From: Neglectibacter timonensis
GTDB taxonomy: Bacteria > Bacillota > Clostridia > Oscillospirales > Acutalibacteraceae
Reading direction: 5' to 3'
Length of the DNA: 64,000 bases
Assembly (NCBI RefSeq): GCF_900048895.1
Contig: NZ_LT160640.1
Coordinates: forward strand, 932,814 to 996,813
Positions 2,878 to 13,703 of this stretch are shown here, piece after piece; within the stretch, counting starts at the first letter, position 1; each line of letters starts with the position of its first letter. The translations under genes were made by a program, and so were the position numbers. A model generated the notes under the pieces. The model saw nothing but the letters and a program-made list of their open reading frames with translations, was not told the origin of the DNA and searched no databases.

Positions 2878-3240
2878 TTATTCGTAGGTGGCAATCAGAT
2901 GTCCGTTGTCGTCGATAGCCAGGGAAGGGGTCTTGCCATCCGCTCCCGCTGCGCCGGGGGTGCCTGTGTCTCCTTTTTCTCCCTTGGCTCCGGTCAGTCC
3001 GGTGTCTCCTTTGGGCCCTTGAGCTCCCGCAGCGCCGGTGTCGCCTTTTGCTCCCGTATCGCCTTTGGGGCCTTTCAGGGTGCCGCGTTTCGTCCATCCG
3101 CTGTCCGTCTTTTCGTAAATGTCCCCGGCAACTGTGTCCAGCGCCCAATCTCCCACGATTCCCAAGGATGCTCCAGGGGCAGCGGTTACATTGTGCATTT
3201 GACTGCCGACGATTTTTCCAAGATCTATTGTCTGTGCCAT
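2878..3240 (-). CDS. Short collagen-like tail fibre protein
   Basis: A 120-residue protein with an N-terminal TIDLGKIVG segment, then about 15 Gly-X-Y triplets (residues 57-100), then a short tail ending DDNGHLIATYE. The same kind of tail (IDSAGHLLVSYE) ends the next gene upstream, and the N-terminus resembles the larger collagen-like fibre, so this looks like a minimal module built from shared fibre parts. It has no separate globular receptor domain. Confidence 0.7.
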   Translation of the reverse strand: MAQTIDLGKIVGSQMHNVTAAPGASLGIVGDWALDTVAGDIYEKTDSGWTKRGTLKGPKGDTGAKGDTGAAGAQGPKGDTGLTGAKGEKGDTGTPGAAGADGKTPSLAIDDNGHLIATYE

Positions 3241-3267
3241 ACCATTTCCTCCATATTCATTTCAAGG

Positions 3268-3615
3268 TCATTCGTAACTCACCAGCAGATGACCCGCCGA
3301 ATCGATGGAAAACACCGGCGTCCTTCCATCCGCTCCCGTTTTTCCGGGAGGCCCCTCCGCATTTCCGCAGTCAATTGTCTCCCCACTTGCCATCGTCAGA
3401 ACAAGGTGACCATCCTCCCGGACTGCCGCACTCAGAATCGTTTTTCCTTCGGCGCTCTGGTCCTGCAGCAGCCGAACCGCCTTGATGTTGTTGAGAATTG
3501 CCGTGAACAGCGGATTGAATGTTCTAGACGCAGAGGCAGGATCTGAATCCAGAAGGGCAGGGATTTTCTCCGTGTATTCCGGAAAATCCGCAAGCTGATA
3601 ATCTTTCCGTTTCAT
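3268..3615 (-). CDS. Tail-appendage protein, paralogue of the gene at 6753-7175
   Basis: A 115-residue protein. The ATG at 3615 is preferred because GGAAAGGGG lies just upstream. The N-terminal half (PEYTEKIPALLDSDPASAS then FNPLF) is clearly related to the N-terminus of the gene at 6753-7175 (PEYTVQIRRLQNSDPGNAE then FNPLF). The shared block is probably a docking domain for the baseplate or fibre base. A PPGKTGADGRT stretch near residue 90 is a short remnant of a collagen-like shaft. The pair flanks the radical SAM cassette. Confidence 0.6.
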   Translation of the reverse strand: MKRKDYQLADFPEYTEKIPALLDSDPASASRTFNPLFTAILNNIKAVRLLQDQSAEGKTILSAAVREDGHLVLTMASGETIDCGNAEGPPGKTGADGRTPVFSIDSAGHLLVSYE

Positions 3616-3699: not shown

Positions 3700-4035
3700 T
3701 CATACACCACCGGCCCCCTCCGGGTTCTCCGGCTGTCTCTCCAAAGTGACAGTCAGGTTTTTCTTCCCGTCCACCAAGAGCCGCTGGGCTATATCAGTGA
3801 TGCTGGTGTACCCTGTGTAAACAGCGCATTCCTCACCCCCGCAGGAAACGGTCAAGGTTTCCAAAGCCCCGGGGGCCTCCAGCAGTTCCCTGTAACTGTC
3901 CAGCCCATTCTGGGATCCGCTGTCCTCAATGGACAGCCTCCAGGGACTGGCACTGAACAAATTCGCCAAATTATAGCTCTCCTGCACCGAGGTGGCCGCA
4001 AAGGACGTACCATTTTTCAAAGTGACAGTAAACAT
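3700..4035 (-). CDS. Hypothetical protein coupled to the radical SAM gene
   Basis: A 111-residue protein started at the ATG at 4035 (TAATG overlap with the stop of the radical SAM gene; TTGGAGGAAG site upstream). It begins MFTVTLKNGTSFAA and is probably a small beta-sandwich or beta-barrel domain; it contains two cysteines in CGGEEC. No family recognised. Tight coupling to the maturase suggests either a fourth member of the cysteine-protein system or simply the next fibre-cluster gene. Confidence 0.5.
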   Translation of the reverse strand: MFTVTLKNGTSFAATSVQESYNLANLFSASPWRLSIEDSGSQNGLDSYRELLEAPGALETLTVSCGGEECAVYTGYTSITDIAQRLLVDGKKNLTVTLERQPENPEGAGGV

Positions 4036-5354
4036 TAAACTTCCTCCAATTCTTTCAGCATGTTCCATTCTGTTTCGTCGATAATTTCAAGCGCCCAGTC
4101 TTTCGGAATATAAATTTTGTGCCGCTTCCGGGAATCCTCCGCCCGGTATATTCGGTTCCAGTGGTAGGCGTTTGCCAGAGCCCTGGCTTTGTGCATCACA
4201 CAAATAAAAGTAGCACGCCTGTCCGGCGTGCCGAAAATCTGGTAATTATAGGCCGAGCACCAGGAGCAGCCCTCCGCAATGGGGCAGGAAAAGCATTCGT
4301 CGGTGCTCTGGGTGCGCCGGTCGATACACTGTAAACAGTGGGCGCAGTTTTTGTGTTCCTCCGAACGCAGAATCCCCGTGTCCACATGCCCAACGGTAAG
4401 GGGCTTAATCCCCTCTCCCAGGGAATTTGGCATGTACCTGATACAAGGGTAAATGTTCCCGGTGTAGTCCACGGAAATCATGTCCCCGGTGCCCCCGCAC
4501 CAATTTTGTAAATCTTTGGGATCCTTCGGGTGGAAAAAGTTTTCCTCAAACATGGAAATGTAAGCTTCCTTTTCCAGCCCATGTTCCAACACATACTCCG
4601 AAAGGTGCTTGAGCTGTCCATAGAGGATGCGGGCGTGGGAAAGTTCCCAGCCTTCTTCGTAGACGCAGTTTAAATTGATCTCCCGGTATCCGTTTTCCAG
4701 CAGGGACTTCACCGCCTCAAAGCTGTGCTCCACGTTTTGGGGGCAGAGGGTCATTTTGGAGCCCATCGTCCCGCCCAGCACGTCCACAAAATGCCGCACG
4801 CCCTTCATGGCCAGGTCGTAGCTGCCCCGGCCGTCAGGAAATACCCGGCAAGCGTCATGGAGTTCCTTGTTGCCGTCGATAGAAATAGAAAAGGAGAGAT
4901 GGGACATATGCTTTTTCAGATATTCCTGTACTTTTGGTTGGAAATAATGAGTCCCGTTGGAACAAATGGAGATACAAAATCGTGTAGCCCAGGGATGCTG
5001 CAGCCGGATCAATTCCCCGATGAAGTAATCGGTAATCTGGTCAATGAGTTCGATTTCCAACAGCGGCTCCCCGCCGATGAACTCAATGATAACCCCTGGG
5101 GAAAGTTCCGGATTGATGTACTCGTTGTCCGAGAGGATTAGGTCAATGAATTTTTTTGCCGTTTCAAATCGCATCACGTGATTTGCTTTCACACCCTGGT
5201 AGCAGTAGGTACACCGCAGAGAACAGGCGTCCGTCACGGCAAAGGTCACGGTGCGGGTGAGGACGCCCCGTTTGGAGACGCCTCCTCCAGACGACTGGTT
5301 GACAGGAAACAGCCGGGCAAGCCTGTCCTGGAACTGCTCCGTCCGGCGGGTCAT
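4035..5354 (-). CDS. Radical SAM/SPASM maturase of a cysteine-rich (CXXX-type) protein
   Basis: A 439-residue enzyme. Seen in the sequence: the radical SAM cluster motif CSLRCTYC (C44, C48, C51), the SAM-binding GGEP at 94-97, and a SPASM-type C-terminus with cysteines at 286, 304, 337, 340, 343, 354, 357, 363, 366 and 385 that would hold two further iron-sulfur clusters. Known for the family: such enzymes install carbon-carbon or thioether crosslinks, or other changes, on ribosomally made substrates whose gene is next door. The gene two upstream encodes a protein with about 59 cysteines, the obvious substrate. The start overlaps the stop of the small partner gene (ATGA). The assignment to the CXXX-repeat-target maturase group is from memory of that family; the chemistry is not known from sequence. 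Confidence 0.8.
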   Translation of the reverse strand: MTRRTEQFQDRLARLFPVNQSSGGGVSKRGVLTRTVTFAVTDACSLRCTYCYQGVKANHVMRFETAKKFIDLILSDNEYINPELSPGVIIEFIGGEPLLEIELIDQITDYFIGELIRLQHPWATRFCISICSNGTHYFQPKVQEYLKKHMSHLSFSISIDGNKELHDACRVFPDGRGSYDLAMKGVRHFVDVLGGTMGSKMTLCPQNVEHSFEAVKSLLENGYREINLNCVYEEGWELSHARILYGQLKHLSEYVLEHGLEKEAYISMFEENFFHPKDPKDLQNWCGGTGDMISVDYTGNIYPCIRYMPNSLGEGIKPLTVGHVDTGILRSEEHKNCAHCLQCIDRRTQSTDECFSCPIAEGCSWCSAYNYQIFGTPDRRATFICVMHKARALANAYHWNRIYRAEDSRKRHKIYIPKDWALEIIDETEWNMLKELEEV

Positions 5355-5647
5355 GCCCCTTCCCCCTGGGACAGCGCCACCTCTCCGGTCTGGTAGTCCA
5401 GCGTCCAGTTTAAAAGCCCTTCCTTTGCCCGGGGCAGCACAAATTTCTGCTCGAATTCCTTTTTCGCCGCCTCGAACTGCACAAAGAACTCCCGGTACTC
5501 GTCGTGGTACTTCCGGAAGCTCTCCCCGGTGATGTCCGCCCCCTGGCGCAGCATGGCCTCAATCAAAGCCCGCCTTGCCTCCACCTCAAACCCCAGGCTT
5601 TCGATGTAGTCGATCAGTTCTCTTTCCTTCACCATAAACGTCTTCAT
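5351..5647 (-). CDS. Small partner protein of the radical SAM system
   Basis: A 98-residue protein started at the ATG at 5647, with AGAGGA 9 bases upstream. It is highly charged and helical throughout (VKERELIDYIESLGFEVEA, then EFFVQFEAAKKEFEQKFV) and has no cysteine, so it is not itself a substrate. It sits between the cysteine-rich gene and the maturase and overlaps the latter by 4 bases. In CXXX-repeat peptide systems a small helical modification-system protein occupies this place; a substrate-delivery role is inferred by analogy. Confidence 0.55.
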   Translation of the reverse strand: MKTFMVKERELIDYIESLGFEVEARRALIEAMLRQGADITGESFRKYHDEYREFFVQFEAAKKEFEQKFVLPRAKEGLLNWTLDYQTGEVALSQGEGA

Positions 5648-5740
5648 GTTGCATGTCCTCTTTCTGTTATATTTTGTATAGGTCAAAACGGTTTTTAAAA
5701 TAAAAACAGCAGGGGAGAAGCCTCCTCTGCTTGCAAACCC

Positions 5741-6748
5741 TTATGTGCTGGTAGCTGAACCGTAGCACTGGGCCGCGCAGGTCCCCGTGCAGGTGGCCGT
5801 GCAGGCGGTGGAGCAGGAGGCCTTGCACTGTCCGGAGCACCCGGAAGAACATCCGGAGCATCCGGAACAGCCCCCGCAGCCCGAACAGCCCGAGCAGCCC
5901 CCACAGCTGGCGGAACACCCTCCGGAGCAACTTCCCCCGCAGCCGCTGCAGGTGTTGGAACAACCAGAGCAGCCGCTGCCGCAGCCTCCAGAGCAAGAAC
6001 CCCCGCACCCGGAGCAGCCTCCGCAGCCCTTGCACCCGGCGCTGCAACCTGTGTTGCAGTCCCCGCTGCAGCCTCCGCAGCCGGTACAGCCCACGCAGCC
6101 CACATGACAGCCTGTGCAGCTGCCCAGACAGGCTGTGGTGCATCCACCGCCGCAGCCGTTGCTGCAGCCCTTACAACCCGTGCAGCTTCCCGTGCAGCCA
6201 CTGCAGGCGTTGGTGCACCCGCTACTGCAGGAGGCACATCCGGAGGAGCACCCGGAACAGCCATTACAGCCTGTACATCCGGAACTGCAGTAACTGCCGC
6301 AGCTTGCAGAGCAGCCTCCGCAGCCGCTGCTTCCACTGGATCCTCTGCACCCGCTGCAGGTGCTGGTGCAGGTGGCGGCGCAAAGCCCCGAGCAGGCCCC
6401 CCGGCAGGAGCTGGAGGAGGCCGTCATGCCTTCCGTGCCATAGTTCGCAACCTTGTCCAACAAGGCCCCGTCAAAGGCGGCAGGGATGGGGTCCCCCGCA
6501 CCGGAAGGCGTTTCTCCCCCCGGCGTAATCCCCTCCACCAGCAAAAGGCCGGGAATGTCCGCAACCTCCAACAGGGGATTAATCACCTTTTTCCCGTGCT
6601 CCGCCAGCACCCGGCCCCCGGATTCCGGCTGGATCGTAAACTCCCAGTCCGCCCCGGAAAAGGAAGCGAGGCTCCCGTTTCCGGAGCGCCTTGCCATCTC
6701 CGTTTTCACCGCTTGCTTCAATTCCGCGATCTGTTGTATTGTCAGCAT
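5741..6748 (-). CDS. Cysteine-rich CXX/CXXX repeat protein, probable radical SAM substrate and tail appendage
   Basis: A 335-residue protein in two parts. Residues 1 to about 113 are cysteine-free and look like a folded leader or docking domain (start LTIQQIAELKQAVKTEMARR). Residues about 114-328 contain some 59 cysteines by my count, spaced two or three residues apart, with Gly, Ser, Thr and Ala between them (CSGCSGCGGCSGC is typical). There is a single longer gap near residue 135. The end YGSATST is cysteine-free. Gene order is this protein, small partner, radical SAM enzyme, which points to it being the substrate. Its place among fibre genes argues for a structural part of the virion rather than a secreted peptide. 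Free-thiol, disulfide or metal-binding alternatives cannot be excluded. Confidence 0.75.
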   Translation of the reverse strand: MLTIQQIAELKQAVKTEMARRSGNGSLASFSGADWEFTIQPESGGRVLAEHGKKVINPLLEVADIPGLLLVEGITPGGETPSGAGDPIPAAFDGALLDKVANYGTEGMTASSSSCRGACSGLCAATCTSTCSGCRGSSGSSGCGGCSASCGSYCSSGCTGCNGCSGCSSGCASCSSGCTNACSGCTGSCTGCKGCSNGCGGGCTTACLGSCTGCHVGCVGCTGCGGCSGDCNTGCSAGCKGCGGCSGCGGSCSGGCGSGCSGCSNTCSGCGGSCSGGCSASCGGCSGCSGCGGCSGCSGCSSGCSGQCKASCSTACTATCTGTCAAQCYGSATST

Positions 6749-6752
6749 TTTC

Positions 6753-7175
6753 TCACCCCCAGACCGCGTTCACGGCAATCCAATCCGTTCCGTTATAAAA
6801 CTTCAAAATGTTCCCATTCCCTGTGTCAATCCACCCGAGCTTCACATTCTCCGGCGCTGCTTCCTGCGCAACTAGCCCACCTTGGGCATTGAGGTATGTA
6901 TCCGGCACCTTCCCGTCCGCCCCCAGGGGGGCCACGCCGTTCGCCTCGCCTTTTTCTCCCCTGCCGATGTAATCCATGTCCGGCAGCTGCGCCTCCGGCA
7001 CTTTCCCGTTTACAAGGTCCGCCTTGTATAGATGATTTGCATGGATATTGTCCACCAGCTTCTGGAACAGCGGGTTGAATACCTCCTCCGCGTTGCCGGG
7101 ATCGCTGTTCTGCAGCCTGCGGATTTGTACCGTATATTCCGGCGATTGCGCCGGGTTGTAATAACTCTCTGGCAT
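6753..7175 (-). CDS. Tail-appendage protein with docking domain
   Basis: A 140-residue protein; the ATG at 7175 is preferred (GGGGGAAC upstream), since a start at 7223 would lie inside the previous gene. The N-terminal PEYTVQIRRL/SDPGNAE/FNPLF block is shared with the gene at 3268-3615. Two linker motifs, NGKVPEAQLPDMDYIG and DGKVPDTYL, are of the kind found between fibre shaft and head. The end (LKFYNGTDWIAVNAVWG) is a typical small fibre C-terminus. It directly precedes the cysteine-rich gene, 4 bases away. Confidence 0.65.
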   Translation of the reverse strand: MPESYYNPAQSPEYTVQIRRLQNSDPGNAEEVFNPLFQKLVDNIHANHLYKADLVNGKVPEAQLPDMDYIGRGEKGEANGVAPLGADGKVPDTYLNAQGGLVAQEAAPENVKLGWIDTGNGNILKFYNGTDWIAVNAVWG

Positions 7176-7194
7176 CCTTCCGTTCCCCCTGTTC

Positions 7195-7584
7195 CTATAG
7201 CTTGCAGTCAAAGACGAATTCAAACTCTTCGTCTTCCTCTTTGAACTTCGGCAAGGTGTTCCTCAGCATATAGAGGGCGCCGTCCCCGGACACCAGCGCC
7301 ATTTCATTCAGGCCCATGCCGGCCAGTTCTCCCTCCGGGACCACGATGCTGAACCGCGCCGTGGTCTCATCCGGATAGGCCGGTTCCGCAACCGGGTAGC
7401 GTCCCACCTCGTTGTGGAGGGATGCCTGCGTTTCAGAGGGGATTAGGGGGTTCCCCGCTTCGTCCTGCCCTCCGGTTCCCAGTGCAATATACCGGACAGG
7501 GGAGAGTGCCTGCAGCGATCCGCTGAGCAGCCCGCAGAGGCGTCTGCGCAGCTCCAGGCAGATCACATTGTTTTCACTTTCCAT
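7195..7584 (-). CDS. Tail-collar/fibre base protein
   Basis: A 129-residue protein. The pattern PVRYIALGTGG, then PSETQASLHNEVGR, then GLNEMALVSGDGALYM is typical of the N-terminal domain of phage tail-collar fibres (DUF3751-like), which attaches fibres to the baseplate. Unlike full collar fibres it has no long distal part, so it probably acts as an adaptor onto which the later fibre genes dock. It begins one base after the upstream tail gene ends. Confidence 0.6.
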   Translation of the reverse strand: MESENNVICLELRRRLCGLLSGSLQALSPVRYIALGTGGQDEAGNPLIPSETQASLHNEVGRYPVAEPAYPDETTARFSIVVPEGELAGMGLNEMALVSGDGALYMLRNTLPKFKEEDEEFEFVFDCKL

Positions 7585-8385
7585 TTAAAAATCCTCCTTT
7601 TTTGTCTGTCCCGCACGCAGCCGTTTTGTGCCATCCAGCAGATAGGTCCCGTCCAGCCTCCAGACAGGAGAATGCATGGTGACGGAAGCGCCGGACCGCA
7701 CCGGGAGCCTGCATGCCCACCGCAGCCGGAACGCATGGGGAAGGAAGAGGCCGAACCTCCAGAAACCCGGCTTCCAGCTTCCGTCCAGAAGCCTGCTGCC
7801 GTCCAGGGGTACCGGCTTCAACGCCCAAAAATCCACGCCCGCCCTTATGGTAAACAGAACGGGCGCAAGGCTCTGCTCAAGCAGGAATTCCGACAAATAG
7901 GGAATCTGAAAGGAAAAGGAGACTCCCGCCGGCAAAAGCTGGTCCAATATGGCCTTGATCTCCGCTTTGGAAGCCGGAGACTGTTCCAGAACCTGCGTGC
8001 CGGCGACCCGCATCCTCACCCGTCTGTCCCGGTCCTCCCTGTCGCGGATCGTGAACTCCCCCGGTCCGCATTCCATGATGTTCTGCAGCGCCACAGAAAT
8101 GTCCGGCTGAGTGCCGTCCCCCCGGTCCCGGGCCATTTTATGATACAGCAGCACCCGGTATCTGGCGTCGTCCGCGCTTCCCCGCGGCTGGCCCACCTTT
8201 TCTCCGTGCAGGTCCAGGGTTTTTCCAATCGCCGTGCGGATATCCTGGCTCTCCTCCGTCAGGGCGGCAGCCTCCCGCAGCTCCTCCAGAGCTTCCGCTG
8301 AAAGCTGCAGCAGCTTGTAGTTGTTGCTCTTTGGATCCTTCCGGTATACGTCGGGCAGCTTCCTTACCAGGTCACTGGTCTTCAT
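7585..8385 (-). CDS. Baseplate wedge / tail protein I-like (YmfQ, XkdU-like)
   Basis: A 266-residue protein with the usual start of this group (KTSDLVRKLPDVYRKD) and a long helical first half. The gene follows the baseplate J-like gene and overlaps it by 14 bases, as in PBSX-like phages. The C-terminus carries two copies of a small motif (LLDGSWK and LLDGTKRL) of the sort seen in proteins that contact fibres. Role: baseplate wedge component linking to the fibres. Confidence 0.75.
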   Translation of the reverse strand: MKTSDLVRKLPDVYRKDPKSNNYKLLQLSAEALEELREAAALTEESQDIRTAIGKTLDLHGEKVGQPRGSADDARYRVLLYHKMARDRGDGTQPDISVALQNIMECGPGEFTIRDREDRDRRVRMRVAGTQVLEQSPASKAEIKAILDQLLPAGVSFSFQIPYLSEFLLEQSLAPVLFTIRAGVDFWALKPVPLDGSRLLDGSWKPGFWRFGLFLPHAFRLRWACRLPVRSGASVTMHSPVWRLDGTYLLDGTKRLRAGQTKKEDF

Positions 8386-9550
8386 AGGTTTCCACCTCCA
8401 CCGTCACATGCTCCGGGGGAATTGTAGCCGCCTCCATTGCCGTACAGGAGATGTTTGCGGCGGAAAACGTCTCCCCGTCCGCAGAGAGCTCCAAGCTCAC
8501 CACGTCACAGACCCCGGGCACGGAGAGCACCGGACCGTACAGCCTGGACAGGATCACATCCGCTCCGTTGGAAAGCTTGTCCAGACAGGCGGAAATTTCC
8601 GCTTTCACCTGGTCGCTTCCTCCTTTAGGGAAGGAATCGTCCACAGCGATTCTGACCTTTGCGTACAGGATCTTGTCCAGTACATGGGAAAACCGGATAA
8701 GATGGGGCGTGCCGCTTTCATCCTTCACCTCAACGCCCACACTTCCCCAGGCCTTAATGCCGGCCGGCTTCCTGCGGAAAATCGCCTGGGCAATCTGCGC
8801 GTCAAGTTCCGACGGGGCAAACACGGCGCATTCAAAGGAGCCCGGAGGACGTCCAGCCGCATCGGTCTCCTCCCCGTCGTTTTCCATCACCGTGCAGGCG
8901 CGGACTCCGGAAACCCGGAGAACCGCCGCCCGGATCGCATCGGCGGTGGAACTGCCCGTGCCGGACCTGGCCTGGCGGTACCTGGTCCGGAGTTCCGGAT
9001 CCGTCTCCTCGTCCTTTCCGGATTCCTCTATGCCCAAATGGCGCAGCCCGGTCACGCGGGCATCAGCCTCCACAATCCTGACAAGAGAGCCTGCAGGCAC
9101 ATTCCCGCTTTCACCGGGTTCGTTAGCGTAGAACAGCGCTTCCGCCGTGCCGTCATCCCCCAGAACGGTATCCTGCTCCGTGTGGAATTCCAGACCATCT
9201 TCCGTCGCCGCCAGAAAGCCCGCAGGGACAGCGTATCCCGGAAGCCCTGTGAGCAAAACCCGGTGAACCGCCCGTGTCGCCGGGTTCCTCCCGTTGAGCC
9301 CCGCTTCTATGACGAGGCGCTGCAAACTGGACCCCGTTGCGGTGTTGGGGAAGATCGCATAGTAAATCCGTTCCAGTTCTTCATAAGCCTGCGCCAGGTT
9401 TTCCACCTCAAGCCGGATATATTTCCCGAAGGGCGTTTTCTCGTCCGTCTCAATATCCGCCCCAAACAGAGCCCTTGCCCGTTCCACCCGTTTTGCCAGC
9501 AGCTCTTCATACAGGGGCCGCTGAAATCCTTTTTCCGTCAATGCCGCCAT
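8372..9550 (-). CDS. Baseplate J-like protein (XkdT-like)
   Basis: A 392-residue wedge protein of contractile tails. The N-terminus (ARALFGADIETDEKTPFGKY), the central GTGSSTADAIRAAVLRVSGV block and the domain order match Mu gp47 / P2 J / XkdT relatives. It lies in the conserved order gp25-like, J-like, I-like. It follows the preceding baseplate gene by 11 bases and overlaps the next. Confidence 0.85.
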   Translation of the reverse strand: MAALTEKGFQRPLYEELLAKRVERARALFGADIETDEKTPFGKYIRLEVENLAQAYEELERIYYAIFPNTATGSSLQRLVIEAGLNGRNPATRAVHRVLLTGLPGYAVPAGFLAATEDGLEFHTEQDTVLGDDGTAEALFYANEPGESGNVPAGSLVRIVEADARVTGLRHLGIEESGKDEETDPELRTRYRQARSGTGSSTADAIRAAVLRVSGVRACTVMENDGEETDAAGRPPGSFECAVFAPSELDAQIAQAIFRRKPAGIKAWGSVGVEVKDESGTPHLIRFSHVLDKILYAKVRIAVDDSFPKGGSDQVKAEISACLDKLSNGADVILSRLYGPVLSVPGVCDVVSLELSADGETFSAANISCTAMEAATIPPEHVTVEVETYEDQ

Positions 9551-9561
9551 ACGTTCCCCCT

Positions 9562-9915
9562 TTATACCATCCTGCTGCCCGTCACTGCCTCCCCGCTTCC
9601 GCTGCGGGCGCTGAAGGTGAGCAGCAGCCTCCGCTCCGAGGTCATCTCACAGGAAAAACTCTCCAGAGAAAAGCTCTCATCCACCTGCTGCAGCCCTGCC
9701 AAAAGCTCTCCCCGCAGCGTTTCCCCGTCCGGATGCTTCCCTGTCAGCAGGGCCCTTCGGTCGATGCCCTCCTCGGGGTTCCCCGCCCATTCGCCCCGGT
9801 TTGTCCCCAAGACGCATTCGCAGGTCTGCCGGAGCAGCTCGTTCCCCTCTATCATTCGGATCCGTCCGCCGCGCAGCTCCAAATCACCGCCGTGGTCCAA
9901 CGCAAAGCCCTTCAT
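9562..9915 (-). CDS. Baseplate gp25-like protein (DUF2634, XkdS-like)
   Basis: A 117-residue protein with the gp25-like core (RGGRIRMIEGNELLRQTCEC, then LGTNRGEW). In contractile tails this lysozyme-fold protein without lysozyme activity starts sheath polymerisation at the baseplate. It overlaps the spike gene by 4 bases (ATGA) and precedes the J-like gene, the usual order. Confidence 0.8.
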   Translation of the reverse strand: MKGFALDHGGDLELRGGRIRMIEGNELLRQTCECVLGTNRGEWAGNPEEGIDRRALLTGKHPDGETLRGELLAGLQQVDESFSLESFSCEMTSERRLLLTFSARSGSGEAVTGSRMV

Positions 9916-10325: not shown

Positions 10326-11261
10326 TCAAATCACCGTCAATTCCGTAATAAAATCCGTGCCGTTATACACGTGCTTTCCCTCCAGCACATGGAAGGCCCC
10401 CGTCACATCCCTTGTCCTGAGATTTACCAGAGAACCCGTCATGGCCCGGTGCTGCAGCAGCAGCTTCAGCCTGTATCCCTTCCGGATCTCCGTCTCCCCG
10501 TCCTCCTTGAGCTCCTCCTGAAAGGGCTCCGGACTCTCCAGCAGCCCGTGGGAGGAATCCAAATCAAAACGCAGCCCGTTTGTGCTCTCCCGCACGTCCT
10601 GCGCATAAATCTTCCCGCGCTGGATATAGGTGGAGATGCCGCAGGTCCGGGCGTACCTGTCAATGCTCTGCATGATTCCCCCGCTCACCGTCACAGCGTC
10701 CTCATAGATGTGATCCTTCCGCGCCCGGAACACGGCGATCGGCAGCCCCAGGCGTTCCAGCAGAGCCCTCAGAATGTAGGATGCGCTGGTCCCGGCGGAA
10801 AAGGATATGTTCTCCACGTCCTTTTCCTTCAGAGCGGGATTGTCCACGGCGCTGATGACCGTCTTCCGGTCCACGCCCACCCAGGGACTCTTTACGTCCG
10901 AGATGACGCCGGAAAAGATCACGCCGGTATCGTCCCCATATCCCGCTGTCAGCGTGACTGCCTTGTCCAGCTCCAGCCGTTCCCGTGTGGCCCGGCTTAA
11001 ATTGTATACGGTAAATTCCGCCTCATTGGCGGTGGTGTCGTCGTCAAAAGGAACGGTAAACTCCAAATCCAGATTGGCAAGGTCAATAACGGACCCGCCC
11101 GCTCTCAAAACCGCTCTGGCGCCGAACAGCCCCGAAGGCGGCGAGGGTACCGATTGGGAAAGATCCTCCTTCAGCAGATCCAGCGCCCGGATCACCCTGG
11201 AATACCGTTCCCTTTCCCCTCGGGGTCCCAGCGCTTCCCCGCTGTATCTTTTGTCAGCCAA
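10326..11261 (-). CDS. Baseplate hub protein (XkdQ / gp27-like)
   Basis: A 311-residue protein. The central part (AEFTVYNLSRATRERLELDKAV in two pieces, then AGYGDDTGVIFSGVI) is the classic first domain of phage hub proteins related to T4 gp27 and P2 D. It would form the ring at the tail end of the tube on which the spike sits. It overlaps the plug gene upstream by 8 bases. Confidence 0.75.
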   Translation of the reverse strand: MADKRYSGEALGPRGERERYSRVIRALDLLKEDLSQSVPSPPSGLFGARAVLRAGGSVIDLANLDLEFTVPFDDDTTANEAEFTVYNLSRATRERLELDKAVTLTAGYGDDTGVIFSGVISDVKSPWVGVDRKTVISAVDNPALKEKDVENISFSAGTSASYILRALLERLGLPIAVFRARKDHIYEDAVTVSGGIMQSIDRYARTCGISTYIQRGKIYAQDVRESTNGLRFDLDSSHGLLESPEPFQEELKEDGETEIRKGYRLKLLLQHRAMTGSLVNLRTRDVTGAFHVLEGKHVYNGTDFITELTVI

Positions 11262-11589
11262 CAGCGCCGCCCCCTTCGTCGTCCACGGTCAGGAACACCG
11301 TCTCCCCCAGGTTTTCCCAGGTCACGGCCTGCTCCTGCCCGGATTCATCCAGCGGCGTCAGGTCCAGCGCCGGGAAAACCCCGGCCCGGTACACGTCCCG
11401 GAACAGCGGCATCCCGTAAACCAGGGGTTCCCCCGAGCAGAGCAGGGATCCTGCGCTGTCGTACAGGCTAACGGTAAAAAAACAGGCGGTCCGGTTGTAA
11501 TCCACGAAAAAGGTATAGGCCCTGCCCGCCAACACGATATCAAACCGATAGGGGATCAGATTTTTGTTAATCTCGATCCTGTCTCTCAT
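11254..11589 (-). CDS. Baseplate plug-like protein
   Basis: A 111-residue beta-rich protein starting with the segment NKNLIPYRFDIVLAGRAYTF and containing FVDYNRTACFFTVSLYD. It resembles the small plug proteins found between the LysM gene and the hub in simple contractile-tail phages (cyanophage Pam3 gp18-like, DUF6983-type). The assignment rests on sequence pattern and conserved position. Confidence 0.6.
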   Translation of the reverse strand: MRDRIEINKNLIPYRFDIVLAGRAYTFFVDYNRTACFFTVSLYDSAGSLLCSGEPLVYGMPLFRDVYRAGVFPALDLTPLDESGQEQAVTWENLGETVFLTVDDEGGGAVG

Positions 11590-11590
11590 A

Positions 11591-12211
11591 TCACTTCCTC
11601 CTGTTCCCTACCCAAAGCCTCGCCCCCACCTGCATGGAGGTGGGATCCCCGGATATGGAAAAGGCCTGTGGATTCCTGGCAATCACGTCGCTGCAGGTGA
11701 ACCCATAGGTCTTGGTGGGATACGGCGCATGAGGGGCAGCCACCAGATCCCAGATGGTGTCCCCCGCCTTCACAGTATAATAGACTTTTTCCTCCGTACT
11801 GTTTTCCTGAATCTGCTGCGTCCCGGCGTTTTGCCGCGGGTCGGAGGACTGGCCAACATAGGAATTTCTGGCAAACCTCCCGTGCTTCAGCTCCATCTCA
11901 AAGGTGAGCCCCGCCATCACACTGCCGGGGTGCCCCGTGTCGAACCTGGTAATAAGCATGTTTTTGTCGTAATTCCGCCCGGCATAGGTCACCGGTGTTG
12001 CGGTGGCGGCCAACTGCCGCAGCTTTGCCAGTTTCTGCGCCGCATCCGGCCCCACCACCTCCCCCTGCAGCTTGATCACAAAGGGCTGAGGCCGCAGATG
12101 GTCCGCAACCGCCTCCCCATCCTCCACCGGATGGCTGGAAAGCTCATATTCCTGTTCGACCCTTTCCCCGTCCTCATCGATAAACACATAGATCCCGTTG
12201 ATCAGCGCCAA
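11591..12211 (-). CDS. LysM-domain baseplate protein (XkdP-like)
   Basis: A 206-residue protein. Residues 1-110 form a beta-rich tail domain (INGIYVFIDEDGERV, then TAGRNYDKNMLITRFDT in part). Residues about 145-205 are a LysM domain (YYTVKAGDTIWDLVAAP, then ARNPQAFSI) that ends at the protein terminus. Such proteins clamp the tape measure and hub and may touch peptidoglycan. In PBSX-like order this gene should directly follow the tape measure gene; here a HicAB pair and a lipoprotein gene lie in between. Confidence 0.8.
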   Translation of the reverse strand: MALINGIYVFIDEDGERVEQEYELSSHPVEDGEAVADHLRPQPFVIKLQGEVVGPDAAQKLAKLRQLAATATPVTYAGRNYDKNMLITRFDTGHPGSVMAGLTFEMELKHGRFARNSYVGQSSDPRQNAGTQQIQENSTEEKVYYTVKAGDTIWDLVAAPHAPYPTKTYGFTCSDVIARNPQAFSISGDPTSMQVGARLWVGNRRK

Positions 12212-12230
12212 GCAGCCCCCTCCTTTCCAT

Positions 12231-12262
12231 AAAAAAGAAGCCCGCCGCGTGGCAGGCCTCCT
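12231..12262 (-). terminator. Rho-independent terminator after hicB
   Basis: On the minus strand, 7-bp arms GCCTGCC / GGCGGGC (12251-12257 and 12240-12246, one GU pair) enclose a 4-base loop and are followed by TTCTTTTTT. It closes the hicAB unit and would reduce read-through into the LysM gene. Confidence 0.65.
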
Positions 12263-12275
12263 CTTTTTGATCTTT

Positions 12276-12689
12276 TTACACCCTGGGCTGATCGTCGAGC
12301 CCCAGAGTCTGTTTCAGGGCGCTCTGCAGCACCTGCGAGAAATTGACGTTCTTCCGCTCCGCCGCGCTGTTCAGCCATGCGGGGATGGTCAGCGTTTTTT
12401 TCACTGAAACATTTTTCACCTGCTGGCGGACAAGAGGCATATAAACAGAGATCAGCGCAGGGACTTGGTTCTTCTCCAGATGGATTTTGCTGATTGGCGT
12501 TGATTCGGGAATCTCTTCTCCATCAGCCTCCATCCCATAAATGTGCAGTCCCATCGCCTCCTCCGCGTTACGCAAGGCTTCCTCCTGCGTCTGCGCGCAG
12601 GGCAGGCAGCCGGGGAGATCAGGAAACTCGATAGAGATTCCGTCCTCTGCAAAATCCAGTATGGCGATATAGGAATACGTGTCCTTCAT
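12276..12689 (-). CDS. hicB: HicB-family antitoxin
   Basis: A 137-residue protein. The N-terminal half is the HicB partial RNase H-like fold (YIAILDFAEDGISIEFPDLP, then GCLPCAQTQEEALRNAEEAM). The C-terminal part (KKTLTIPAWLNSAAERKNVN, then FSQVLQSALKQTLG) is a ribbon-helix-helix type DNA-binding domain. It neutralises HicA and represses the operon. It follows hicA by 46 bases, with the toxin gene first as is normal for this type. Likely autoregulation through the palindromes upstream of hicA. Confidence 0.85.
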   Translation of the reverse strand: MKDTYSYIAILDFAEDGISIEFPDLPGCLPCAQTQEEALRNAEEAMGLHIYGMEADGEEIPESTPISKIHLEKNQVPALISVYMPLVRQQVKNVSVKKTLTIPAWLNSAAERKNVNFSQVLQSALKQTLGLDDQPRV

Positions 12690-12735
12690 TGCCGGTTCTC
12701 CTTTCTGTACAAACTAGAGGGAAAGCGGAAGCCCG

Positions 12736-12933
12736 TCAGGGGAATTTTACCCCTGACTGCTTCTCTATGTTTCTTACTGTTCCCGCCGGGATATCCTTTT
12801 TCGGGTGGGTTACCGTTACCCGCCCTTTCTTTGTGGGATGCTTGAATTGATGATGGTCCCCAACGCAGCTCACTTCGTACCAGCCATCGTCCTGAAGCAT
12901 CTTGATAATTTCCCGCGAGGAATAGCTTTTCAT
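12736..12933 (-). CDS. hicA: HicA-family mRNA interferase toxin
   Basis: A 65-residue double-stranded-RNA-binding-fold toxin. Diagnostic features are SSREIIKMLQDDGWYEV and the catalytic-histidine region GDHHQFKHPTKKGRVTVTHP, followed by DIPAGTVRNIEKQSG. HicA cleaves mRNA when free of HicB. The pair sits as cargo inside the phage tail module with its own promoter, so it can be expressed in the lysogen; roles in prophage maintenance or defence against other phages are possible. Confidence 0.88.
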   Translation of the reverse strand: MKSYSSREIIKMLQDDGWYEVSCVGDHHQFKHPTKKGRVTVTHPKKDIPAGTVRNIEKQSGVKFP

Positions 12934-12959
12934 TCCGCCTTCCCCCTTTCACTGTACTT

Positions 12960-12988
12960 ATTATAGCACGTATTACGATACGTGTCAA
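12960..12988 (-). promoter_or_regulatory. Consensus promoter and palindromic operator of hicAB
   Basis: On the minus strand TTGACA (12988-12983) and TATAAT (12965-12960) are separated by exactly 17 bases. The spacer contains the inverted repeat CGTAT-n4-ATACG (12969-12982). Further upstream, ACACGTGT (13007-13014) and an ACGTAT (13023-13028) repeat the same core. These are good candidates for HicB operators. Confidence 0.8.
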
Positions 12989-13115
12989 TAAGAAAAGAGA
13001 AAATTTACACGTGTTTTCTTACGTATAAATCATAATAGGTATAAGAATTCCGCCCTAACAGTTATCGGGACAGGGCGTTTTTGGCGGTTCACCATAGGAT
13101 TTTAAAAATTTGTTC

Positions 13116-13703
13116 CTATGAAAAATTATAGTCTTGAAATCCCATCCCTATCTCTGCTATTTTTTCATCCTTGACATGGATGGTCATGCTATACACTTTT
13201 CGACCTTCCTTTATCATTCTGGCGTAATCATAATGTCCTTTTTCATCTGTTTCTAAATAAACTAGCTTTCCATCATCATCTTCATAATAGGAATACGTCA
13301 AGCCTAAGCACTCCTTACCTTTCAAGAAGTCGGGGGAATGCTTTATCGCTTCTTCTACAGTATATTTTTGTTTAAGATCAGCAATATTTGCTTTCTCTTC
13401 TTCTGTAGCAGAGCGCCAGTAGATGATTGTCCAATAAAATTTGTCTATATCATACTTTTCAAAAGCTGTTGTTGCCCTATCTCCTATTTTCACACCACAT
13501 CTTGTTTGAAAATCCCCGCCCTTTTCTGCATTCAGCCTCGTTAAATAGATCGAACTGTCTTCCGACGTAGGGAAATCTATCTCTTTACCACTATCGTCAT
13601 AAAAGGAAAAGTCCTCTATTGAAACAGTATTTGCAGTTTGTGAACACCCAGCAAACACAAGTAGCAGCAGCAGGCAAACAGATACTGTTAAACCTTTTTT
13701 CAT
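13116..13703 (-). CDS. Prophage-encoded lipoprotein, unknown function
   Basis: A 195-residue protein started at the ATG at 13703. A lipoprotein signal is clear: KK, a hydrophobic run (LTVSVCLLLLLVFAGC) and the lipobox cysteine at about residue 20. The mature part is acidic, with no family I recognise. Its AT-rich codon use differs from the GC-rich tail genes on both sides, so it is probably a recently acquired cargo gene expressed from the lysogen. Together with hicAB it forms a small non-structural island between the tape measure and LysM genes. Confidence 0.65.
   Translation of the reverse strand: MKKGLTVSVCLLLLLVFAGCSQTANTVSIEDFSFYDDSGKEIDFPTSEDSSIYLTRLNAEKGGDFQTRCGVKIGDRATTAFEKYDIDKFYWTIIYWRSATEEEKANIADLKQKYTVEEAIKHSPDFLKGKECLGLTYSYYEDDDGKLVYLETDEKGHYDYARMIKEGRKVYSMTIHVKDEKIAEIGMGFQDYNFS

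Follow-up and report, generated by a model that had tools for sequence, protein, structure and literature searches.

Radical SAM maturase and cysteine-repeat protein paired in phage tail loci, with a candidate cross-linked tail appendage as the proposed product

Within the fibre genes of a contractile prophage of Neglectibacter timonensis, probably a gut bacterium, lies a cassette of three genes that couples a peptide maturase to an unusually cysteine-dense protein. The DNA analyzed, hereafter the window, is a stretch of 64,000 nucleotides (contig NZ_LT160640.1, positions 932,814 to 996,813), of which the cassette occupies 4035-6748 on the minus strand (Table 1). In upstream-to-downstream order, it encodes P0003, the proposed substrate; P0002, a small partner; and P0001, a radical S-adenosylmethionine (SAM) enzyme bearing a SPASM domain. 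A first-pass annotation made from the letters alone had described three consecutive coupled genes at this place, set among the fibre genes of a contractile phage, and both halves of that description hold. The start of P0001 overlaps the stop of P0002 by four bases, 93 bases separate P0003 from P0002, and P0003 itself begins four bases past the stop of a fibre-like gene. Pfam and PHROG scans place fibre-like genes on either side of the cassette, and the late genes of the window comprise sheath, tape measure, hub, gpW/J/I-type baseplate proteins, capsid, portal, and terminase; the gp letters (gpW, gpJ) of the baseplate genes are those we presume to apply.

Table 1. Genes of the cassette and its surroundings, in window coordinates
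Feature	Position	Strand	Remarks
P0003, proposed substrate	5741-6748	minus	~110-aa N-terminal domain plus 214 residues with 59 Cys; 335 aa in total
P0002, small partner, 98 aa from ATG	5351-5647	minus	probable TIGR04116 counterpart
P0001, radical SAM/SPASM peptide maturase	4035-5354	minus	TIGR04115 family; phrog_1802
Accessory small protein, 111 aa	3700-4035	minus	ATG shares one base with the P0001 stop
Tail-fibre-like protein, directly upstream of P0003	6753-7223	minus	weak tail PHROGs
Tail-collar/fibre N-terminal-like protein	7195-7584	minus	Pfam E 0.008, below cut-off; baseplate wedge PHROG E 5e-10
Collagen-like fibre protein downstream of the cassette	2878-3240	minus	
Collagen-like fibre protein with Phage_tail_C tip, downstream of the cassette	1719-2894	minus	
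Baseplate gene	7585-8385	minus	
Wedge gene, gpJ-like (presumed)	8372-9550	minus	
Wedge gene, gpW-like (presumed)	9562-9915	minus	
Hub gene	10326-11261	minus	

The enzyme is readily assigned to a known family. The search against radical SAM subgroup models that had been suggested for it returned TIGR04115 at 470.6 bits, over the curated cut-off of 350, followed by PapB (NF047865) at 166 bits, below its cut-off of 340. The CSLRCTYC motif and the intact SPASM cysteine set noted earlier are both in place, and all ten cluster-binding cysteines, seven of them in the SPASM portion, are invariant among 12 aligned sequences. Against two relatives, the dN/dS of P0001 is 0.09 and 0.14 (Nei-Gojobori, with dS over 2 and saturated).

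The cysteine spacing of P0003 is remarkably regular. Previously read as about 59 cysteines spaced 2-3 residues apart, the protein indeed holds 59, and 57 of its 58 Cys-Cys gaps are CxxC or CxxxC (24 gaps of 3 residues and 33 of 4; 98%), with a single gap of 9. Across 20,000 shuffles of the Cys stretch, gaps of 3-4 made up 25% on average and 48% at most. An artefact of DNA repetition was considered as the source of this spacing and rejected, since Tandem Repeats Finder at its default score gives just two short arrays that overlap (18-bp unit, 2.3-2.4 copies); the mixed cysteine codons, 45 TGC and 14 TGT, also count against it. The stretch is rich in Gly, Ser, and Thr and contains one acidic residue. 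The N-terminal domain is helical in a poor AlphaFold2 (AF2) model (predicted local distance difference test, pLDDT, 66). No NCBIfam model, TIGR04114 and TIGR04117 included, matched P0003 at E up to 0.1, and its Arg pair at 20-21 has, by eye, no hydrophobic stretch behind it of the kind that marks a twin-arginine translocation (Tat) signal.

The small partner is free of cysteine, as first described, provided that translation starts at the ATG at 5647; the listed TTG start would add one. Its AF2 model (pLDDT 93.6) consists of a strand, two long helices, and a beta hairpin in strand-helix-helix-strand-strand order, and found no match in the PDB at E up to 0.001. An NCBIfam scan likewise gave no match between P0002 and TIGR04116. 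A profile-profile comparison, however, matched the P0002 family to the TIGR04116-type family across 81 columns (probability 80%, E 1.3e-5). The aligned part takes in a closing motif, Trp-x-Leu/Ile-Asp/Asn-Phe/Tyr, that most members keep. By sequence, P0002 is thus probably homologous to TIGR04116 and its phage counterpart. A role as a recognition element (RRE) for ribosomally synthesized and post-translationally modified peptides (RiPPs) was rejected; the RRE is a winged-helix fold, and the fold modelled for P0002 lacks a winged helix.

How general is the coupling? Searching IMG/VR with P0001 gave 56 loci (numbered with the prefix L), which collapse into 43 viral clusters at 90% identity. A Cys-dense ORF (open reading frame), taken here to contain 12 or more Cys in 60 residues, lies within 3.3 kb of the enzyme and on its strand in 39 of them under the standard code. 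In the other four, the enzyme is broken by 1 to 5 in-frame stops, of one type each (TAG in L030 and L047, TGA in L050 and L056). Read with TAG as Gln or TGA as Trp, these enzymes are open and neighbour a Cys-dense ORF with 15-16 Cys in 60, and the pair is therefore present in 43 of 43 clusters. The substrate/enzyme layout first proposed for the window is thereby borne out on a broader scale than had been noted, extending also to the jumbo phages described below. In 22 of the 43 clusters, one phmmer pass places a P0002 homologue immediately ahead of the enzyme. The farthest pair, in L020, is 3.25 kb apart; its 53-Cys repeat is of the same kind by inspection and is fused (L020:352-4052) to a Gly-rich domain, PF12810 (over cut-off), that also occurs in both neighbouring genes. 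The end of this L020 protein looks out of frame with the PF12810 domain. Among 32 phage proteins under 600 aa, 25% of 1,818 Cys gaps are of 3 and 72% of 4; in the longer ones, the corresponding shares of 575 gaps are 9% and 78%. With the window's gpJ as the query, no relative appeared in viral contigs, which makes a presence/absence comparison of close phages impossible by that route.

Several of these enzymes have peculiarities of their own. In L011 and L029, the enzyme opens with one recoded TAG each. Inteins (Pfam Intein_splicing, over cut-off) lie within the enzyme at L020:4870-7221 and L044:4825-7212, the former in the CxxxCxxC motif, and the long enzyme ORFs of L012, L024, L037-L039, L052, and L054 may likewise hold inteins.

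The converse search, started from the substrate domain and making no use of the enzyme, leads to the same pair. Sequence diversity made the 18-row domain alignment A1 unfit for searching, and an 8-row subset, A2, served as the profile. It retrieved 31 viral loci, 12 on contigs that the enzyme search had already yielded and 19 on new ones, four of the latter being near-identical (L109-L112). Every one of the 31 shows a Cys-dense ORF that contains or adjoins the domain, and an enzyme match accompanies 27 of them (in pieces in L117), including 15 of the 19 on new contigs. Three of the remaining four are contigs that stop 72, 958, and 1 bases past the ORF (L115, L116, and L119, respectively); the fourth, L104, whose short Cys-repeat gene with the domain lies at 3043-3588, is followed by 1.7 kb of DNA without an enzyme match and is a genuine exception. 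Related phages that keep the cysteine gene while always lacking the enzyme, the outcome named at the outset as refuting, thus did not materialize. A trimmed domain profile found 90 ORFs in 216 loci, several of them overlapping; 89 carry a Cys-dense stretch under the standard code, and the 90th (L050), cut by a recoded TGA, is Cys-dense once TGA is read as Trp. In five of the ORFs listed, the domain is C-terminal rather than N-terminal. Its occurrence only alongside Cys repeats is compatible with a dedicated dock, with a recognition handle, or with a domain that is both. Matches of the Cys regions to PHROG 6085 look compositional and were not used. In L107 and L120, a tandem pair of radical SAM genes stands behind the Cys-repeat gene.

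Genome contigs were scanned as well, and the best 80 of 191 loci were kept, 22 of Firmicutes type (L121-L140, L158, L164) and 58 others. Under a more permissive rule (8 or more Cys in 60 residues, no farther than 5 kb away), a Cys-dense ORF is present in 18 of the 22 and in 56 of the 58, the exceptions among the latter being L152 and L197. The pair looks incomplete in L122, which has no Cys gene and an enzyme match lacking the first 44 residues; in L127, which shows no Cys gene and an upstream ORF containing a run of N; and in L132 and L164, with little upstream DNA or a partial enzyme. Within these best 80 loci, the clostridial ones are mostly prophage-like, the nearest full-length relative (73% identity) belonging to Oscillospiraceae, and most non-clostridial ones are titled Bacteroidales or its families. 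L152 (4591-8928, titled Spirochaetales) holds two tandem TIGR04115-like enzymes and a TIGR04116-type partner, with no Cys-dense ORF found. Two further loci, L204 and L205, with enzymes of 683 and 686 aa, have no nearby Cys gene; L205 has a weak A5 match.

The source genome itself contains a second TIGR04115 copy (contig C10, 386-387 bits), which belongs to a second, divergent cassette (L203, G000:C10:8000-24000, at 6711-9595) with a Cys gene, a P0002-type gene, and an enzyme. Here the Cys gene begins 10 bases past an 876-aa collagen-like tail-fibre gene, and this gene order recurs behind a fibre homologue in a congeneric genome (G217), as far as the contig runs. Of 300 genomes of the family, three have an enzyme over the cut-off: the source genome, G097, and G055.

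Proximity to tail genes was traced in two ways. Queried with the window's own tail proteins, nine of the 43 viral clusters yielded a tail or fibre homologue close to the cassette. Of 15 clusters from which one or two large neighbours were scanned against PHROGs, 10 gave tail matches, with short matches only in L011, L029, L033, and L036 and none in L007, L017, L019, L023, and L052. The two approaches combined recognise tail genes near the cassette in 19 of the 43 clusters, and such genes were also recognised in L203 and L206. Homologues of the fibre-like protein directly ahead of P0003 sit just upstream of the cassette in several relatives.

A divergent form of the pair occurs in cultured jumbo phages. 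P0001 matched 95 phage records, all below 60% identity, of which 61 are named after Enterobacterales hosts (Erwinia 34, Salmonella 22, Cronobacter 2, and one each for Enterobacteria, Escherichia, and Proteus). Seven of the 61 were fetched, representing four genera (Seoulvirus, Derbicusvirus, Machinavirus, Wellingtonvirus): SPN3US, Phobos, EarlPhillipIV, CR5, Caitlin, Huxley, and pEa_SNUABM_11. Each of the seven carries a pair of Cys-repeat ORFs (127-153 aa, 20-23 Cys) ahead of its radical SAM genes, and the gene that precedes these ORFs is annotated as a virion structural protein (hypothetical in pEa_SNUABM_11). Only one of the 14 ORFs, the first of EarlPhillipIV, is annotated in frame; in four of the phages, genes are annotated over them on the opposite strand, and the SPN3US gene 0166, annotated at the Cys ORFs (L207, record 143413-144220), lies in another frame. 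The jumbo loci differ from that of the window in having a second radical SAM-annotated gene, other N-terminal segments, and a long tree branch. TIGR04115 is the best NCBIfam model for their large enzyme, at 125.6 bits and below cut-off. No P0002-type match was found in the four SPN3US neighbours tested, and the fecal phage contig L216 has no Cys-repeat ORF.

In SPN3US, the radical SAM genes are 0163 and 0164 by locus tag, and the Cys ORFs, on the minus strand of the record at 143828-144220 and 143413-143817, lie between 0167 and 0165, after genes 167-170. In the available text of one study, the products 168, 169, and 170 were found in virions by mass spectrometry (MS) and are candidates for baseplate or tail-fibre components, 168 being essential (PMC5694885). 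The strings gp165-gp167 are absent from the main texts of four articles (PMC5694885, PMC10052503, PMC5105663, PMC7411985), the coverage of bare numbers in tables extending to Table 1 of PMC5694885. Because 13 of the 14 jumbo ORFs are not annotated in frame, the Cys ORFs may not have been searchable in SPN3US proteomics. According to its available text, the 2023 SPN3US study moreover fixed cysteine as carbamidomethylated (PMC10052503), so that cross-linked Cys peptides would be hidden even with the ORFs in the database.

The closest known relative of the cassette is the CXXX-repeat system (TIGR04114/04115/04116/04117/04119), which is mainly found in Bacteroidales among the loci seen. The two are alike in that a Cys-repeat substrate stands beside an enzyme of one and the same family, over its cut-off, and in that the small partners are similar in length and closing motif. 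They differ in several respects. In the Bacteroidales repeat, CxxxC predominates (84% of 1,385 gaps in 55 proteins), whereas P0003 mixes CxxC and CxxxC (41% and 57%). The Bacteroidales substrate carries a Tat-like signal, in place of which the phage substrate has a different N-terminal domain. Lastly, the Bacteroidales operon runs from a twin-arginine Cys-repeat protein through TIGR04115, TIGR04119, and TIGR04116 to tatA and tatC (L161, L170; tatA/tatC tested in L170, TIGR04119/TIGR04116 in L161), while the phage cassette has no adjacent tat genes and sits in a tail operon. The Bacteroidales target in L161 reaches 40.9 bits with TIGR04117, whose cut-off is 50, and also stays below the cut-off of TIGR04114. 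In a 75-row tree, 15 Bacteroidales-type rows (14 of the 58 genome loci plus MT837480) form one side of a branch (100/100), near the clostridial and phage rows, and four enterobacterial jumbo phages group apart, their branch being very long. The tree omits L135, L164, L040, whose match contains one stop, and nine viral clusters in which the enzyme ORF is long. The CXXX-repeat models reportedly originate from a paper by Haft, and a search by the numbers TIGR04114-04117 and TIGR04119 found no paper in the open full-text literature.

The difference in export genes extends to the whole source genome, in which tatC gave no match (the control was positive in 11 of 14 genomes). Consequently, the product is unlikely to leave by Tat, and lysis is the obvious exit. 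Neither TIGR04119 (at E up to 0.001; the control matched in one of 14 genomes, below cut-off) nor TIGR04116 matched in the source genome, the latter matching in no control genome either. This comparison also bears on the idea that P0003 is a metallothionein-like metal or thiol buffer for the infected cell, altered by the enzyme. Its CxxC-rich sequence would suit such a role, but a single acidic residue in 214, a position in the tail operon, and relatives in which the same kind of repeat follows a Tat-like signal make a buffer very improbable.

Together, these observations lead to the proposal, to which we give a probability of roughly 60%, that a tail-appendage protein, which exits by lysis, receives thioether-type cross-links from the enzyme. 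Its parts differ in strength. Given the genetic coupling, it is near certain that P0001 acts on P0003. Kinship with PapB and SCIFF-type maturases argues with moderate force for thioether bonds, and gene position together with the missing export route argues, also moderately, for the presence of the product in the virion. A mechanical or adhesive role is weakly suggested. In the sequence of events envisaged, P0003 would be made late in infection together with the tail fibres, and P0001, assisted by the TIGR04116-like P0002 in handling the substrate, would move along the Cys-repeat stretch, installing many intramolecular bonds. The bonds would most likely be thioethers from Cys sulphur to carbons of nearby Gly, Ser, Thr, or Asn, likely acceptors here because almost no acidic ones are present. 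A flexible Gly/Ser/Thr/Cys chain would thereby become a compact, protease-resistant rod or knob, which the N-terminal domain (C-terminal in some relatives), possibly doubling as the recognition handle of the enzyme, would dock on the tail or fibre assembly. The product would then leave the cell by lysis, on the virion, as opposed to Tat export in the Bacteroidales relatives.

The bond type is where a second interpretation departs. The product could be a virion appendage on which the enzyme performs another modification (epimerisation, C-C or C-O links), the cysteines forming disulphides or binding metal. SPASM enzymes catalyse many reactions, and no direct chemistry is at hand for this one. 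PapB-type ranthipeptide maturases (NF047865) have the radical SAM/SPASM architecture of P0001; PapB substrates carry short Cys-acid motifs, in contrast to the single acidic residue in the Cys stretch of P0003. However, NCBIfam annotates the two best families, TIGR04115 and PapB, as CXXX-repeat-target and ranthipeptide maturases, and Cys spacing is the feature most strictly kept. We regard this interpretation as rather unlikely, slightly more so than the one that follows.

The chief competitor retains the modified Cys-repeat protein and moves it outside the particle, as a RiPP-like effector or bacteriocin, encoded by a moron in the late operon and freed at lysis. Judging by family names, the general class of the enzyme makes RiPPs; in the loci examined, the substrate domain goes with Cys repeats and is not shared with ordinary fibres; and no detection in a virion has been seen. 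Set against this are substrates that reach 766-1,072 aa with long non-Cys regions among the relatives, the L020 substrate fused to a domain common to its neighbours, and the recurrence of the cassette beside tail genes of varied phages, jumbo phages included. Nor was an immunity, peptidase, or transporter gene noticed in the ORF lists, although no search was aimed at these. On balance, a RiPP-like product is unlikely, and the cross-linked tail appendage is the reading that we prefer.

Several points weigh against that appendage nonetheless. No tail gene was recognised in 24 of the 43 clusters, in limited searches, and the neighbours that are not tail genes include a glycosyltransferase (L052), an endolysin (L017), an exonuclease (L023), and an ATPase (L011). 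The N-terminal domain, seen only with Cys repeats and poorly modelled by AF2 in P0003, could be a leader or recognition domain rather than a virion dock. Cys-dense proteins can bind metal or form disulphides without any enzyme. G097 and G055 have no Cys gene beside their enzyme, which weighs against universal pairing outside phages. Neither a mass shift nor virion proteomics of any Cys-repeat protein has been seen, and the SPN3US virion studies, in their available text, do not report Cys-repeat proteins.

A wider proposition, for which we see slightly less than an even chance, is that a radical-SAM-cross-linked Cys-repeat protein forms a widespread class of phage tail appendage, spanning clostridial phages with varied tail modules, recoded phages, and, in divergent form, cultured enterobacterial jumbo phages. 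Such a class, in which a radical enzyme would shape the covalent architecture of the virus particle, could have escaped notice, given that most of the ORFs lack annotation and that standard MS searches presuppose alkylatable Cys. To our knowledge, no virus particle is matured by a radical SAM enzyme, and no radical-SAM-matured phage protein was found in the open full-text literature (titles and abstract openings of the matches listed; most subscription journals lie outside it). The main text of a review of radical SAM RiPP enzymes contains neither "phage" nor "CXXX" (PMC8326336). Campylobacter phages CP220 and CPt10 encode 11 and 12 radical SAM proteins per genome, which differ from the present case in being read as metabolic, with no Cys-repeat partner discussed in the available text (PMC2853527). 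If the proposal is correct, phage assembly includes a new kind of post-translational step, the radical SAM genes of jumbo phages and the ORFs missed by annotation acquire a role, phage particles may carry a chemically hardened part so far not looked for, and a route to very stable protein rods opens. SPN3US, for which amber mutants and published virion proteomics exist, is the tractable case.

A few features of the window and its relatives stand apart from this argument. Rfam had no match in the window. A terminator-like hairpin with a T run between P0003 and P0002 (~5707-5731, minus strand) is imperfect, does not fold unusually well (z -1.4), and is absent from a standard terminator scan; it was not used as evidence. 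A similar hairpin occurs in one of 22 relatives, and the element could perhaps limit the enzyme relative to the substrate. The 111-aa accessory gene follows the enzyme directly in a few relatives; its homologues number 9 ORFs in 9 loci, the window's own included, four near-identical and one weak (family scans and homologue search used 3700-4023, four residues short). Finally, L007 has at 11513-13312 a second radical SAM gene, its best match being PapB (below cut-off), followed by a CxC-dense protein; the two look like a further Cys-rich maturation pair within this phage.

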